DNA from: Chloroflexota bacterium
GTDB taxonomy: Bacteria > Chloroflexota > Anaerolineae > Aggregatilineales > Phototrophicaceae
Length of the DNA: 64,000 nt
Direction: 5' to 3'
Assembly (NCBI GenBank): GCA_026709625.1
Contig: JAPOSR010000051.1
Coordinates: 105,147 to 169,146, forward strand
The notes beneath the pieces are model-generated. The model was not told the origin of the DNA. It was given only the letters and a program-made list of their open reading frames with translations, and did no database searches. Shown one piece after another: positions 5,981-49,510 of the stretch; positions within the stretch are counted from its first letter, which is position 1; the number at the start of each line of letters is the position of its first letter. A program made the position numbers and the translations under genes.

Positions 5981-6134
5981 GCGTGGTGAATGCGTGGATA
6001 GGGCAACCATCCCCAGGCACCTTGCCCCCAGAACGAGGGAAGGGGTTTTGCCAGCGCCTCCGCAGCATGGTAGCCCTCCCTCATTTTTGGGGTGGGGGCA
6101 AAGCAACGCTTACCCAGCAAAATCACCACTCCCG
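5981..6134 (-). repeat. Dispersed palindromic intergenic element, copy 1
   Basis: Starts GTGGTGAATGCGTGGATA and ends ATCACCACTCCC, so the ends are inverted repeats. Inside are the family's two paired G/C blocks, AGAACGAGGGAAGGGG and CCTCCCTCATTTTTGGGG, flanking a short GCGCCTCCGCAGC centre. It lies between the ALDH16 start and the cyclophilin gene, in reverse orientation relative to copies 2-5. Confidence 0.8.
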
Positions 6135-11419: not shown

Positions 11420-12583
11420 ATGACTGGCCCGCAAAGCGCGCCGCAGGGCATCGTCGCTGGCAGCATTCCGCTCTTTGCCGGGCATCCCGCGCCCGAATTG
11501 CTGCCTGTGCGCGGCATCCGCCATGCGCTGGCTGCCTGGGACGGGCGTCTGCCCCTGCGCGCATTCAATTATGGCGACGAACAAGGCGATCCACAGCTGC
11601 TGGATTTTTTGCTGGCGCGCCTGAATGCTGCCGAGCAGTTGGGAATCGGGCGCGAGAATCTGATGATCGTGCCTGGCTCGGCCGGCGGCTTGGCGATGAT
11701 CACGCGCCTGCTGACGAAAGCTGGCGATACTGTGCTGGTCGACGCGCCGAGCTACCGAGATGCGCTGCACATCTTCCGCGACCAGGGGCTTGCGCTGCGT
11801 GCCTTGCCCATTGATGACGAGGGTCCCAGGCTGGACGCGCTGGCTGCCGAGCTCGAGCGTCTGGCTGCTAAGCAAATGCCGCCGCGCTTTTATTATGTCG
11901 TGCCCAACTTTCAAAATCCCAGCGGCATCACCGTCAGCGAAGCCCGCCGCCGCGCCATCATTGAGCTGAGCAACCGATATGACTTCTGCATTGTCGAGGA
12001 CGATGTCTATAGCGATTTGCGCTTTGCTGACTGGGCTCCGCCGAGTTTCTATGCGCTGGCTGGCGGCGAGAATGTCTTGCGTCTGGGCAGTTTTTCCAAG
12101 ACATTGGCGCCGGGTCTGCGTCTGGGCTGGCTGCTGGGCGGCTCGCGGCAGATCGCCGAGTTTGTCAAAAGCGGCGTGTTGCGCATGGGCGGCGGGGCGA
12201 ACCCCTTCAATGCGGCGCTGGTGGCGGAGTATTGTCAAAGCGGCGCATGGCAAGCGCATGTCGATTGGCTGCTCGGTCAATATCGGGCGCGGCGCGATGT
12301 GGCGCTGACGGCGCTGGCTGCAAGTATGCCCGGCGGCCTCAGTTGGACGCGTCCCGCTGGTGGCTACTTCATCTGGTTGCGGCTGCCCGACGCGGTGGAT
12401 GTCGATGAACTGGAGCGAAGGGCGCAGGCGCAGCAGGTTTATTTCGCCAACGGACGCGGCTTCTTCCCAGAGCCGGCCAAGGGCGCGCATTTTCTACGGC
12501 TGTCCTACAGCTACCTGCCGCCTGACGATTTGCGCACAGGCATCGCCATCCTGGGCAGTCTGATCGCCCAGTTGGCTGCCTAG
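11420..12583 (+). CDS. PLP-dependent aminotransferase, 2-aminoadipate/MocR-like fold type I
   Basis: A 387-residue class I/II aminotransferase without the DNA-binding domain of MocR regulators. Motifs include FNYGDEQGDPQL, VPGSAGGLAMI for the PLP phosphate loop, YVVPNFQNPSGITVS with the ring-stacking region, VEDDVYSDLRF with the PLP Asp, and FSKTLAPGLRLGWL with the Schiff-base Lys. The C-terminal FLRLSYSY carries the substrate-carboxylate Arg. The closest known group is the LysN/2-aminoadipate type, but substrate range in this group is broad. It is 25 bases downstream of the AbgB-like gene and probably in its operon. Confidence 0.88.
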   Translation: MTGPQSAPQGIVAGSIPLFAGHPAPELLPVRGIRHALAAWDGRLPLRAFNYGDEQGDPQLLDFLLARLNAAEQLGIGRENLMIVPGSAGGLAMITRLLTKAGDTVLVDAPSYRDALHIFRDQGLALRALPIDDEGPRLDALAAELERLAAKQMPPRFYYVVPNFQNPSGITVSEARRRAIIELSNRYDFCIVEDDVYSDLRFADWAPPSFYALAGGENVLRLGSFSKTLAPGLRLGWLLGGSRQIAEFVKSGVLRMGGGANPFNAALVAEYCQSGAWQAHVDWLLGQYRARRDVALTALAASMPGGLSWTRPAGGYFIWLRLPDAVDVDELERRAQAQQVYFANGRGFFPEPAKGAHFLRLSYSYLPPDDLRTGIAILGSLIAQLAA

Positions 12584-12620: not shown

Positions 12621-12628
12621 GCTGCGAA

Positions 12629-12701
12629 CAGCGAGGAAAGGACTCGAACCTTTAACCTTGTGCTCCAAAGGCACCTGCTCTGCCAATTGAGCTACCTCGC
12701 T
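12629..12701 (-). tRNA. tRNA-Gln (anticodon TTG)
   Basis: Read on the minus strand, this 73-nt gene folds with acceptor AGCGAGG/CCTCGCT, D stem GCTC/GAGC, anticodon loop CTTTGGA (anticodon TTG) and T arm AAAGG-TTCGAGT-CCTTT. The outermost anticodon-stem pair (G27-A43) is a mismatch; the other four pair. CCA is not encoded. It converges with the aminotransferase gene. Confidence 0.88.
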
Positions 12702-12861
12702 AACTAGACACGATTTTAGCAGAGATGCGCCGCTGCTCAAGGTTGAATCCTGCGCGCAAGATATTGTCCTCCGCCATCTTCAGAAAAATCACGCTGACCG
12801 GCCGGCACAGTATCAGCGATTTTCTTTGTCTGTTGGTTATGATAACATTAAGCAAATGTAG

Positions 12862-13005
12862 CGAGTGGTGATTTTGGTGGGTACCCGTTGCTCTGCCTCC
12901 ACCCCAAAAATGAGGGAGGGGCTGGCAAACCCCCTTCCCTCGTTCTAGGGGCAAGGGGCCGGGGATGGGAGTCTTGGTTGCCATATCCACGCATTCACGA
13001 CTCCC
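12862..13005 (+). repeat. Dispersed palindromic intergenic element, copy 2
   Basis: Begins CGAGTGGTGATTTTGGTGGG and ends CCACGCATTCACGACTCCC. It carries the CCAAAAATGAGGGAGGGG and CCCTTCCCTCGTTCTAGGGG blocks. It fills most of the gap between tRNA-Gln and the SH3b/HExxH gene; nothing else is seen between 12702 and 13040. Confidence 0.8.
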
Positions 13006-13040
13006 AATGTAGCTTTTTCTTGACAGGAAGGCGCTGACCG

Positions 13041-13994
13041 ATGTACTCAAAATACTTTGCTTTGCTTGTGCTGAGCGTGCTGTTCATGGGCGGCGCTTCT
13101 GCGCAGGAGTATTCCATTCGCGTCAATCGAGGCTTAAACCTGCGAGCCGCGCCCAGCCTCAATGCCGACATCACCGACACAGTCACATCAGGCAGCATTC
13201 TGCAAGTTGTGGGCAAGACAAATCGCTGGCTGCAGATCAACCGCAATGGCCGGCAGGTTTGGCTGGCGGACTGGGTCAATTTCAGCCGCGTCGACAGCAG
13301 CCAGCCGGCAACGCCCATCGACAACTGCTGTTTTGTTGATCGGCAATGCCAAAGCGAGGCGGAATGGGAAGCTGGCTACTGGGCCTTTCAAAACAAGCAA
13401 TGCGCCGCGCCCAGCCAACCCAAGCCAGCGACATCCGCGAATGCGCCTTCGGGTTCCTCGCCCAGTATAGAGGGCTCGCAACAATTTGTTCGCCACATTG
13501 CGGCGACGCTCAATTGGATGCAGCAGGCAGCGCCGGAGTGGCACCACTATGTGATAAGCGGAATGGATGTAATCGCCGAAGTCCCCGTTCCCATTCCCGA
13601 TGTGGGAGGGAGGGTGATAACTTGCACTGCTGCCGCTTATGACCGCCAAAGAAAGGTCACCCTCGAAACTTGCTTTATGACCTGGACTATCTGGGGGACT
13701 GGTCCCGTTGAGCTCGACCAAGTCAACACAGCTGCGGCGCTAGCCCATGAGGCTTGTCACATACACCTGCATGAAGCAGGTATCAACTTTGCGACCCAAG
13801 AACTCGAGGAACTGGAATGCAGGAAATACGGAACGGGCGGAATGGCATCTCTTGCCCTCGCTTTTGAACAGAGTCTTGGGTCAACGTTCACCTGGTTTCG
13901 AGAAGGCGCATTGAGCTTGATCAGACGTTACTGCTCCGAAGGGCTTAGGCCAGAGCTGTTTTGCCCACTCATTCAAAGGTTGCCAGGCGGATAA
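13041..13994 (+). CDS. Secreted SH3b-domain protein with HExxH site (putative metallopeptidase)
   Basis: A 317-residue protein with a signal peptide (about 1-21, ending GGASAQ), a bacterial SH3 domain (about 24-84, containing NLRAAPSLNADI), a cysteine-rich stretch (NCCFVDRQC, about 95-121), a Ser/Pro linker and a C-terminal domain. The latter has AALAHEACHIHLHEAG, with HExxH at 236-240, and acidic residues at 254-259 that could give the third zinc ligand. A secreted zinc peptidase possibly bound to cell wall or glycans is inferred; the family is not one I recognise by name. About eight cysteines suggest disulfides. The ATG is preceded by AGGAAGG. Confidence 0.75.
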   Translation: MYSKYFALLVLSVLFMGGASAQEYSIRVNRGLNLRAAPSLNADITDTVTSGSILQVVGKTNRWLQINRNGRQVWLADWVNFSRVDSSQPATPIDNCCFVDRQCQSEAEWEAGYWAFQNKQCAAPSQPKPATSANAPSGSSPSIEGSQQFVRHIAATLNWMQQAAPEWHHYVISGMDVIAEVPVPIPDVGGRVITCTAAAYDRQRKVTLETCFMTWTIWGTGPVELDQVNTAAALAHEACHIHLHEAGINFATQELEELECRKYGTGGMASLALAFEQSLGSTFTWFREGALSLIRRYCSEGLRPELFCPLIQRLPGG

Positions 13995-14025: not shown

Positions 14026-14409
14026 TTAGCTATCGCCGCTCTCGGGATTGCGGACGCCAATCGCTTCGTCGAGCGGCACGACGAAGGCGACGCCGTGATT
14101 CGGCTCCAGCAAGTCGCCCATGACCGCTCGTGCTTCATCCAGCAGCGTCGGCACCAGTTCTTTTGGCACGACCGACAGCAGCACATGGTTGGTTTGTTCC
14201 ATTTCACGCAGCACATAAGCCATCATGCTGGTCATTGAGCTGGCGATATGCAGCGGCACTTCCAAGCTGTCGCCCCGTATCTTGCGCTGCAGGCTGTGCA
14301 GGCCGAAGCTCTTGAGCACAGTCACGCCTGGCGCGCCCGCTTCTTGCCAGCGGACTGCGACGTCCAGCCCGTTTTCCACATTCGATGTGATGAGGATAAT
14401 CAACTTCAC
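14026..14409 (-). CDS. PII-like signalling protein
   Basis: A 127-residue protein starting MKLIILITSNVENGLDVAVRW and ending in a segment (FVVPLDEAIGV) that fits the small alpha-beta PII-like fold seen beside many transporters. It lacks the classical PII T-loop uridylylation motif. Its start overlaps the antiporter stop by four bases, so the two are translationally coupled, and it probably regulates antiporter activity at the membrane in response to a nucleotide or ion. The assignment rests on size, the N-terminal strand pattern and context. Confidence 0.65.
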   Translation of the reverse strand: MKLIILITSNVENGLDVAVRWQEAGAPGVTVLKSFGLHSLQRKIRGDSLEVPLHIASSMTSMMAYVLREMEQTNHVLLSVVPKELVPTLLDEARAVMGDLLEPNHGVAFVVPLDEAIGVRNPESGDS

Positions 14410-15809
14410 TTTTGCAAGTCTCCTGTCGCTGCGCTCGCGAGCGTGGGGTTGGCGCTTGCGTCTCGTTTCTTGCCTTGGAAGACCCAGCGCACCAGCGGCG
14501 GGGTCAGCACTGTGGTCAACAAGATCACCATGAATAGCGAGGCGTACAATTCGCTGCCGCTATCGAGCAAACCGCTGGACAAGCCGATTGAAATGATGAT
14601 CAGCCCGACTTCGCCGCGCGAAACCATGCAAACGCCCACCCGCAGCGATTCCCACAGGTCGAAGCCGCCCATTCGCGCGCCGATGCCAGCCCCAAACACC
14701 TTGCTGATCACCGCCACCAGCAGCAGAGCCAGCATGAATGGCAGCGCTGCGAGCGGGAAGGCGCTGAGGTCGGTTTCCAAGCCCACATCGATGAAAAAGA
14801 TGGGCACGAGGAAAACATAGGCCAGGTGTGTCATCGCCTGCTCGATTTCCTGCTTGGTGCCTTGCCCTTGCAGATGGCTTAAGCCGACGCCTGCGATAAA
14901 TGCGCCGGTGATGGCTGCCACGCCGCCAAAATACTCAGCCGACCAGCCGAAGAACAGCGCCGACGCCAGCGCAAACATGGGGATGCCATAGGCTTGCGCA
15001 AGCTGTGGCCGTGAGCGGATCCAGCGAAATGCCCGAGGCAAGCCATACCAAGCCAGCGCGAAAGCTACGGCGAGGTAGCCAGCCATCTGCAAGACGATCA
15101 CCAGCAGTTGGCTGAGGTCTGCGCCGTCCCCGTTGGCGCCCGCGCTCGCCAGCACCAGCGTAAGCGACACCGCCAAAATCGCCAGCACATCGTCTATCAA
15201 GGCTGTCGCCAGCAGCGCATTGCCTTCTTTTGTGTGCAGATAACCCAGCTCCAGCAAGACCTGCGCCGAGATGCTCACCGATGTCGCCGCCAGCGTCACC
15301 CCTGCGAAGAGCGCCGGAAACATGTCATAGCCAGCCGCCAGCGCCACCAGCACCGTCAGCGCAATGGGCACGGCAACGCCCAGCGCGCCGCCCAAGACCG
15401 CCACCCTGCCCACCTTTGCCAGCTCGCTGAGATGCACCTCCAAGCCGATGTTGAACATCAGCAGCAGCACGCCCAACTCGGCCAGTTCCTTTAGCGTGTG
15501 CTGCAAGTCGACGCCCTGCAAGATGCCCCAATGCAGCATATCCAGCACGGTGGGACCAAGCAAGACGCCCACCAGCAGCTGCCCCAGCACACGAGGCTGT
15601 CCCAGGCGTCTGGCAACCGCCCCACCAGCGCGCGATGCCAGCAAGATGATGCCCAAGGCGAACATCAGCGGGATAAAAGCCTTGACTGCGCCAGCCTCGC
15701 CTTCGGTGGAAGCAGCCAAAGCCGGTCGCGCACCTTGCGCGAAGAGCCAGGCGAAAGCCAGCATCACAAACAGCATGCGCCGGCGCAGCAGCGCGGCCAG
15801 TTGCTCCAA
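14406..15809 (-). CDS. CPA2-family cation:proton antiporter
   Basis: A 467-residue integral membrane protein with about 12-13 hydrophobic segments and no C-terminal RCK/TrkA-N domain. Family marks include GQPRVLGQLLVGVLLGPTVL, LLMFNIGLEVHLSEL, and ATALIDDVLAILAVSLTL with the paired Asp residues needed for ion binding. A hydrophobic N-terminal segment (LFVMLAFAWLFAQGARPALA) could be a cleaved signal. It exchanges Na+ or K+ for protons; which ion is unclear. It overlaps the PII-like gene downstream. In CPA2 transporters lacking an RCK domain, a separate soluble regulator is common, which fits that gene. Confidence 0.9.
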   Translation of the reverse strand: MEQLAALLRRRMLFVMLAFAWLFAQGARPALAASTEGEAGAVKAFIPLMFALGIILLASRAGGAVARRLGQPRVLGQLLVGVLLGPTVLDMLHWGILQGVDLQHTLKELAELGVLLLMFNIGLEVHLSELAKVGRVAVLGGALGVAVPIALTVLVALAAGYDMFPALFAGVTLAATSVSISAQVLLELGYLHTKEGNALLATALIDDVLAILAVSLTLVLASAGANGDGADLSQLLVIVLQMAGYLAVAFALAWYGLPRAFRWIRSRPQLAQAYGIPMFALASALFFGWSAEYFGGVAAITGAFIAGVGLSHLQGQGTKQEIEQAMTHLAYVFLVPIFFIDVGLETDLSAFPLAALPFMLALLLVAVISKVFGAGIGARMGGFDLWESLRVGVCMVSRGEVGLIIISIGLSSGLLDSGSELYASLFMVILLTTVLTPPLVRWVFQGKKRDASANPTLASAATGDLQK

Positions 15810-20931: not shown

Positions 20932-21103
20932 AATCGGGGGGTGGTGATTTTGATGGATATGCTTTGCTTTGCCCCTCCCCCAAAAAAATGAGGGAGGGGC
21001 TACCATGCTGCGGAAACGCAGGCAAAACGCCCCTTCCCTCGTTCTGGGGGCAAGGGGCCGGGGGCTTGGTTGCCATATCCACGCATTCACCACTCCCCAA
21101 ATC
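20932..21103 (+). repeat. Dispersed palindromic intergenic element, copy 3
   Basis: The best preserved copy. The left end AAATCGGGGGGTGGTGATTTT pairs with the right end TTCACCACTCCCCAAAT. Inside are CAAAAAAATGAGGGAGGGG, a small hairpin CTGCGGAAACGCAG, and CCCCTTCCCTCGTTCTGGGG. It lies between the divergent isomerase and amino acid binding-protein genes. Confidence 0.85.
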
Positions 21104-49354: not shown

Positions 49355-49510
49355 ATGGATTGGCGATTTTTGTGGAAGCCCCCGTCCCCTTGCCCTCAGA
49401 ACGAGGGAAGGGGTGTTTTCCTGCGCTTCCGCAGCATGCTAGCCCCTCTCTCATCGTTGGGGTGGGGTGGGGGTAAAGCAGCACGTATCCAGCAGATTCG
49501 CCACTCCCGC
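49355..49510 (-). repeat. Dispersed palindromic intergenic element, copy 6
   Basis: Begins GATTGGCGATTTTTGTGG and ends GATTCGCCACTCCCGC, with AGAACGAGGGAAGGGG and CCTCTCTCATCGTTGGGG in reverse orientation. It fills most of the gap between the aldo/keto reductase and ftsK; no gene is seen in 49259-49597. Confidence 0.78.

Follow-up and report, generated by a model that had tools for sequence, protein, structure and literature searches.

The gene at positions 13041 to 13994 of the 64,000-nucleotide stretch of DNA analysed here (the window) belongs to an unnamed family that has multiplied into many diverging copies in one Chloroflexota genus, a genus that includes a sponge symbiont. Judging from sequences and from a structural model, we think it probable that the members of this family are exported gluzincin-like peptidases, in which the catalytic core is stapled by a disulphide and the protein is held at a surface by SH3b modules and by a cysteine-rich repeat, NCC. 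A first-pass annotation of the window had read the gene product as an exported zinc peptidase of a new type, and that reading is partly supported here. Going beyond it, we find that the cysteine-rich belt of the protein is one unit of a genus-restricted repeat, that the family is heavily expanded, and that two further, nearly invariant cysteines flank the metal motif.

The open reading frame of 317 codons is preceded by a Shine-Dalgarno-like AGGAAGG at 13025-13031, nine bases 5' of its ATG. The gene and the parts of its product are as follows.

13041..13994, + strand: coding sequence of the secreted SH3b - NCC repeat - HExCH protein, 317 aa; ATG start; homologues in 33/34 genomes of the genus
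13041..13103, + strand: signal peptide, residues 1-21 (ending GGASA, followed by QEYSI), read by eye; similar N-termini in aligned homologues
13131..13265, + strand: SH3b domain, residues 31-75; Pfam SH3_3 (PF08239), E 4.1e-11; fold matches to bacterial SH3 domains
13320..13409, + strand: NCC repeat unit, residues 94-123 (DNCCFVDRQC...EW..GYWAFQN.QC); alignment and genus-restricted repeat
13410..13460, + strand: Ser/Pro/Ala-rich linker, residues 124-140 (about); sequence and low pLDDT
13461..13991, + strand: predicted zincin-like catalytic domain, residues 141-317; family alignments and model (pLDDT 89.7, pTM 0.88)
13746..13760, + strand: putative metal motif H236-E237-A238-C239-H240; conservation in 107 domains
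13809..13811, + strand: E257, proposed third metal ligand; Glu in 106/107 domains, His in 1
13818..13820, + strand: C260, proposed disulphide partner of C239; 104/107 domains and pairing counts

All parts of the domain order claimed in the first-pass annotation (signal peptide, SH3b, Cys-rich segment, Ser/Pro linker and C-terminal HEACH) could thus be located, and its claim of export is borne out by an N-terminal signal peptide that, read by eye, would end at ASA before Q. The SH3b domain is an ordinary member of the bacterial SH3 family SH3_3, scoring 43.3 bits against a Pfam gathering score of 27; its partner domains are new.

A scan of 84,980 species genomes returned nine homologues, which share 28-48% identity with the window protein over their best segment and which come without exception from Chloroflexota MAGs. 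Among the positions that are invariant in the ten-protein alignment are N95, C96, C97, R101, C103 and W109 in the Cys segment, and H236, E237, A238, C239, H240, G247, E257 and C260 in the C-terminal domain. With a profile of the C-terminal domain, 33 of the 34 genomes belonging to the window's genus are positive, as are 2 of 64 other genomes of the same family. Beyond that family the relatives are weak: five genomes are positive in another family of the class, in a scan with 18 positives among 396 genomes in all, and five of 300 are positive in the rest of the phylum. Within the genus the number of matches per genome ranges from 0 to 21 at E <= 0.01, 252 in all, the counts for the richest genomes being at least those given. 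The genes often stand in tandem. The window's own genome has a single family copy, together with one SH3b-NCC protein that lacks the catalytic domain.

One of the homologues, L020, sits on a contig of MPMG01, and G460, a genome of the window's genus, is very probably the Aplysina aerophoba symbiont bin20. In Table 2 of PMC5649159, MPMG01 appears as bin20, a genome assigned to Chloroflexi and obtained from the sponge Aplysina aerophoba. Searches of the openly accessible literature on HEACH or HExCH proteins, on metallopeptidases of sponge-symbiont Chloroflexota, on SH3b and on gene family expansion brought up no description of the family.

Some relatives have unusual forms. Two giant proteins (L079:4408-8142, 1245 aa, and L080:4620-10424, 1935 aa) each carry three zincin-like copies, only one of them with an intact or nearly intact motif, and also fibronectin type III domains. 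Elsewhere in the phylum, in genome G089, the distant relatives L191 and L196 have HNAVH or HNSAH in place of HExxH, together with EREA, and lack both of the cysteines discussed below; one of the two has a long repeat-containing N-terminus before the domain.

Across 107 diverse domains, H236 is present in 106, E237 in 101 (with Asp in four and Tyr in two), C239 in 106 and H240 in all 107; in the same set G247 is kept in 99, E257 in 106 (His in one) and C260 in 104 (Ala in three). All six key residues (H236, E237, C239, H240, E257 and C260) are kept in 97 of 118 domains, and E257 in 115 of the 118, as counted from residue classes. The degenerate motifs comprise four HDACH and two HYACH, in which the catalytic Glu is lost, one KEACH, in which H236 is lost, and four decayed copies without both. 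Conservation on this scale, in 10 of 10 aligned homologues and in the 107 domains, rules out a chance HExxH, and the site noticed in the first-pass annotation is real.

Since searches with the fold of the whole protein were filled by SH3 domains, the catalytic domain was folded and searched alone, apart from SH3b. The resulting model places H236 and H240 in a predicted helix at residues 223-245, and E257, together with C260, in the next helix at 253-279. As far as the helix positions show, the outcome named beforehand as refuting a zinc site, namely that H236, H240 and the later Glu lie too far apart, was not seen in this model. A Foldseek search against the PDB gave no strong match (best E 0.21), and its leading rows were mostly zincins; in VIA-align the M1, ACE, Wss1 and mini-zincin folds appear at Z 5-7. 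Gluzincins, which form MEROPS clan MA(E), have HExxH and a further Glu from the next helix, usually in ExxA or ExxxD. The window family shares with them the HExxH, a Glu in the following predicted helix and a model that resembles zincins. It differs in its two cysteines, one being the fourth residue of HExxH and the other the third residue after the Glu, and in being a very small domain on an SH3b-NCC carrier that reaches the cut-off of no named family.

This last point agrees with the earlier remark that no named peptidase family comes to mind: SH3b aside, no family is reached by sequence at a Pfam or NCBIfam cut-off. Peptidase_M78 (PF06114) gives the window protein 11.8 bits (E 0.22) against a gathering score of 22. 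SprT-like (PF10263) is not among its matches, and is matched by 3 of 58 members, at E >= 0.0032. The putative metallopeptidase family DUF6782 (PF20573, gathering score 27) does not match the window protein, and is touched by two distant Chloroflexota relatives, L195 (24.5 bits, E 1.9e-5) and L059 (18.3 bits, E 0.0015), both below 27. In Peptidase_M78, SprT-like and Peptidase_M91 (PF14891) the similarity is local to the surroundings of HExxH, beyond which the sequences differ, and the scores shown are all below cut-off. A sequence search of solved structures returned none that matches the catalytic domain.

The best fold matches are of a different kind. At the top of the VIA-align list stand 8s5f, the HExxH domain of ChlB (Z 9.2, rmsd 4.6, 163 residues aligned, TMq 0.53), and 22ob (SjiH-Ni, apparently an aKG-HExxH protein; Z 9.0, rmsd 3.8, 163 aligned), which outrank the peptidase rows, at about 7, by about two Z units. 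It is important to weigh whether the family consists of exported relatives of the aKG-HExxH peptide hydroxylases, which would use iron and oxidise their substrate instead of hydrolysing it. The corresponding NCBIfam model, TIGR04267 (IPR026337), weakly matches 13 of 58 diverse members, with a best E of 1.9e-5. In L018, the best of the members inspected closely, the alignment spans positions 1-74 of the 177 in the model, the half up to HExxH; its 23.3 bits fall short of the cut-off of 40, and the second half of the domain, with its E-x-x-C, differs. The window domain has no match to TIGR04267 and so falls outside its membership. (The same profile gave nothing over 41 and 201 Chloroflexota genomes, and nothing in the control genomes either, so that this result does not imply absence.) Among the 107 domains there is, moreover, no near-invariant Arg to anchor the second carboxylate of aKG, and aKG is not expected where exported, disulphide-rich proteins such as these reside. 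We therefore regard an oxygenase as improbable and read the likeness as common ancestry or a shared minimal zincin core, not as common chemistry. The known aKG-HExxH peptide beta-hydroxylases, as far as PMC12636437 describes them, act on RiPP precursors. The fold of the window family may be a hydrolytic relative of these oxygenases, whose origin is described as unusual; if the peptidase reading is right, such a relative would be a possible gain from it.

The degenerate members suggest another interpretation, in which the family is mixed and the majority of its copies do no catalysis, serving instead as binding proteins or decoys with a zincin fold that has gone dead. Such proteins would account for the Asp or Tyr that replaces E237 in 6 of 107 domains, for the decayed copies inside the 1245- and 1935-aa proteins, for the absence of the Glu from the distant G089 proteins, and for NCC and SH3b modules that occur without any HExxH domain. 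The Glu is nevertheless kept in 101 of 107 domains and all six key residues in 97 of 118, and omega is below 0.5 in 11 pairs (see below), all of which makes it quite unlikely that most copies are dead.

The cysteine-rich segment of the window protein (DNCCFVDRQC...QC, residues 94-121) is an instance of a 30-residue four-Cys repeat, D-N-C-C-x5-C-x5-W-x2-G-Y-W-A-F-Q-N-x-Q-C. According to our own models, and with some open reading frames truncated, at least one NCC unit, and up to five, is found in 103 of 114 family ORFs, and SH3b in 74 of the 114. The repeat occurs in 33 of the 34 genomes of the genus, with 1-58 matches each; in a sample of 201 genomes of the phylum, the window's own genome contained it, and the only other match was a single one, partial and weak. 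It is also present on exported proteins without an HExxH domain (e.g. L116, L122-L125 and L134). Because of its near confinement to the genus and its occurrence on such proteins, we conclude that NCC is a lineage-specific carrier module and not a part of the active site. Matches of the segment to snake phospholipase A2 (E >= 0.15) were taken as chance.

Several of the NCC proteins without a catalytic domain (L123, L116, L124 and L125) are small and exported, with varied, often Gln-rich C-termini, and are clustered in L123. Another, L134:204-1799, has two SH3b domains, one NCC repeat and a Cys tail, DRDKDGYGCDA, which we take to be excalibur-like.

The carrier bears upon a third alternative, that the protein is a peptidoglycan hydrolase or autolysin, targeted to the wall by SH3b and cutting cross-link peptides with its zincin domain. 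SH3b domains are indeed known in wall hydrolases, and several of the SH3b fold matches are wall-binding domains. Yet SH3b is absent from 40 of the 114 ORFs (by our own model, and with some ORFs truncated), the catalytic domain matches no wall-hydrolase family, and a copy number of 0-21 per genome with strong sequence diversity is ill-suited to one conserved wall target; we accordingly doubt strongly that the wall is the substrate.

We turn to the two cysteines near the metal motif. Among 118 domains, 109 have both C239 and C260, two have C239 only, none has C260 only, and seven have neither. Six of these seven are the most distant homologues (L054-L058 and L071), in which the count depends on the alignment and most of which have a Cys four residues before the Glu; with these six set aside, the counts become 109, 2, 0 and 1, of 112. 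Moreover, 98 of 102 proteins have an even number of cysteines between their last NCC repeat and the C-terminus, and in all 40 proteins with exactly two cysteines there, these are the HExC and ExxC cysteines. Finally, the four decayed copies in the 1245- and 1935-aa proteins have lost H236 and yet retain both C239 and C260. Co-occurrence, even counts, the proteins with only two cysteines and retention in decayed copies together provide good indirect evidence, at the level of sequence, for a disulphide that would tie the metal helix to the Glu helix. They also offer a simple structural rule: cysteines at the HExC and ExxC positions pair. That the two are instead metal ligands or free redox cysteines, as their positions might suggest (C239 within the metal motif, C260 a helix turn beyond E257), is very unlikely given the even counts, their persistence in the four copies without H236, and the independent conservation of H240 and E257.

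In order to see how the family evolves, we consider the place of the gene in the chromosome, which lies on the 5' side of a tRNA-Gln gene and between the following landmarks.

11420..12583, + strand: class I/II aminotransferase, left landmark of the variable slot; Pfam Aminotran_1_2; syntenic in relatives
12628..12702, - strand: tRNA-Gln(ttg), left-side landmark; also present in 15 empty slots
14026..14409, - strand: 127-aa protein, right landmark; no Pfam match
14406..15809, - strand: Na+/H+ exchanger, right landmark; Pfam Na_H_Exchanger; one match per genome in 33/34 genomes of the genus

The first-pass annotation had the gene sitting alone between a dispersed repeat and an antiporter pair. 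The repeat is real: a G+C-rich element at 12932-12960, just 5' of the gene, recurs at 6016-6044 (-), 21031-21059 (+) and 49384-49412 (-), giving four copies in the window at up to three mismatches, where none is expected. The gene is less isolated than was described, however, since the tRNA-Gln lies there too and 1-4 relatives occupy the same place in related genomes; and only one of the supposed pair is a Na+/H+ exchanger, the other being the 127-aa protein without a Pfam match.

Because the antiporter is single-copy in 33 of 34 genomes, the slot could be surveyed between the aminotransferase and tRNA-Gln on one side and the 127-aa gene and antiporter on the other; the survey was anchored on the antiporter, so that slots were not chosen for occupancy. 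The slot is fully spanned and occupied in 14 genomes, with 1-4 family genes each, as follows.

One gene: G000, G482, G485, G481, G466, G488, G478, G476
Two genes: G463, G465, G491, G484, G460
Four genes: G477

It is fully spanned and empty in 15 genomes, although in the empty slot of G462 the C-terminal end of a family gene survives as a remnant (27 aa at 74%, E 2.5e-10). Where an occupied slot runs off its contig, it holds at least two genes in G471, at least one in G492 and at least three on a second contig of G487, whose main contig is counted as empty; the slot could not be scored in G480, G461 and G489.

Compared with the nearest genome, G477, the flanking genes show 85-95% identity, with dS of 0.31-0.40 (0.64 for the 127-aa gene) and dN of 0.03-0.08, whereas the best pair of peptidase genes shows 61% identity, with dS 0.74 and dN 0.30. 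Likewise, in the comparison with G460 the slot gene is far more diverged than its flanks. Of 107 domains, 101 have their nearest relative outside their own genome, and the expansion can therefore not be due solely to copies made recently inside individual genomes. Since the slot gene has diverged beyond its flanks and the nearest relatives lie in other genomes, the sequences are best read as old paralogous lineages subject to gain, loss or exchange at one constant position, in birth-and-death turnover. Of 12 pairs run, L018/L098 was left out as out-of-frame; in the 11 usable pairs omega is 0.06-0.49, and thus the family proteins are under purifying selection.

With these elements we can state how the protein, secreted or exposed at the cell surface, may work. 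H236, H240 and E257 would bind zinc, and E237 would activate water for cleavage of a peptide bond; once the protein is exported, the C239-C260 disulphide would pin the helix of the metal motif to that of E257, and the SH3b and NCC modules would anchor the enzyme to a surface of glycan or protein. Purifying selection acts on the diversified paralogues that the genus keeps, and gain, loss and exchange of copies take place at fixed sites. The peptidase reading is weakened by the oxygenase folds that rank first, by the failure to reach any curated cut-off and by the dead members, and also by the half of the scored slots that are empty, the single copy in the window's genome and the two members that have C239 without C260.

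A diversified set of paralogues in turnover suggests that the copies divide many extracellular substrates, perhaps sponge-matrix proteins, among themselves, rather than filling a single housekeeping role. For sponge Chloroflexi of these classes, Bayer et al. (PMC6306507) describe genes for breaking down host-matrix glycosaminoglycans and sulphated polysaccharides; in the main text of that paper the strings 'protease', 'proteolyt', 'SH3' and 'secreted' do not occur. An exported peptidase set would fit the sponge-symbiont lifestyle that they describe. If our reading is right, an unnamed and expanded family of exported metallopeptidase-like proteins belongs to a lineage that counts among its members an abundant kind of sponge symbiont, about whose action on the host little is known. 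More speculatively, and with considerable doubt, we can imagine a sponge-associated genus whose secreted zincins form a repertoire in rapid turnover, in which a disulphide links the active-site helices, so that the enzyme becomes rigid or active only once exported, and in which paralogues are swapped on their SH3b-NCC carrier at fixed slots, like an effector arsenal against a variable host matrix or competitors.

One further observation concerns the empty slots. In L166, L167, L168 and most of the others, the space between the aminotransferase and tRNA-Gln contains a gene for a protein of about 245 aa, which the window's slot lacks; by eye this protein resembles a 2OG-dependent dioxygenase (HRDG motif).
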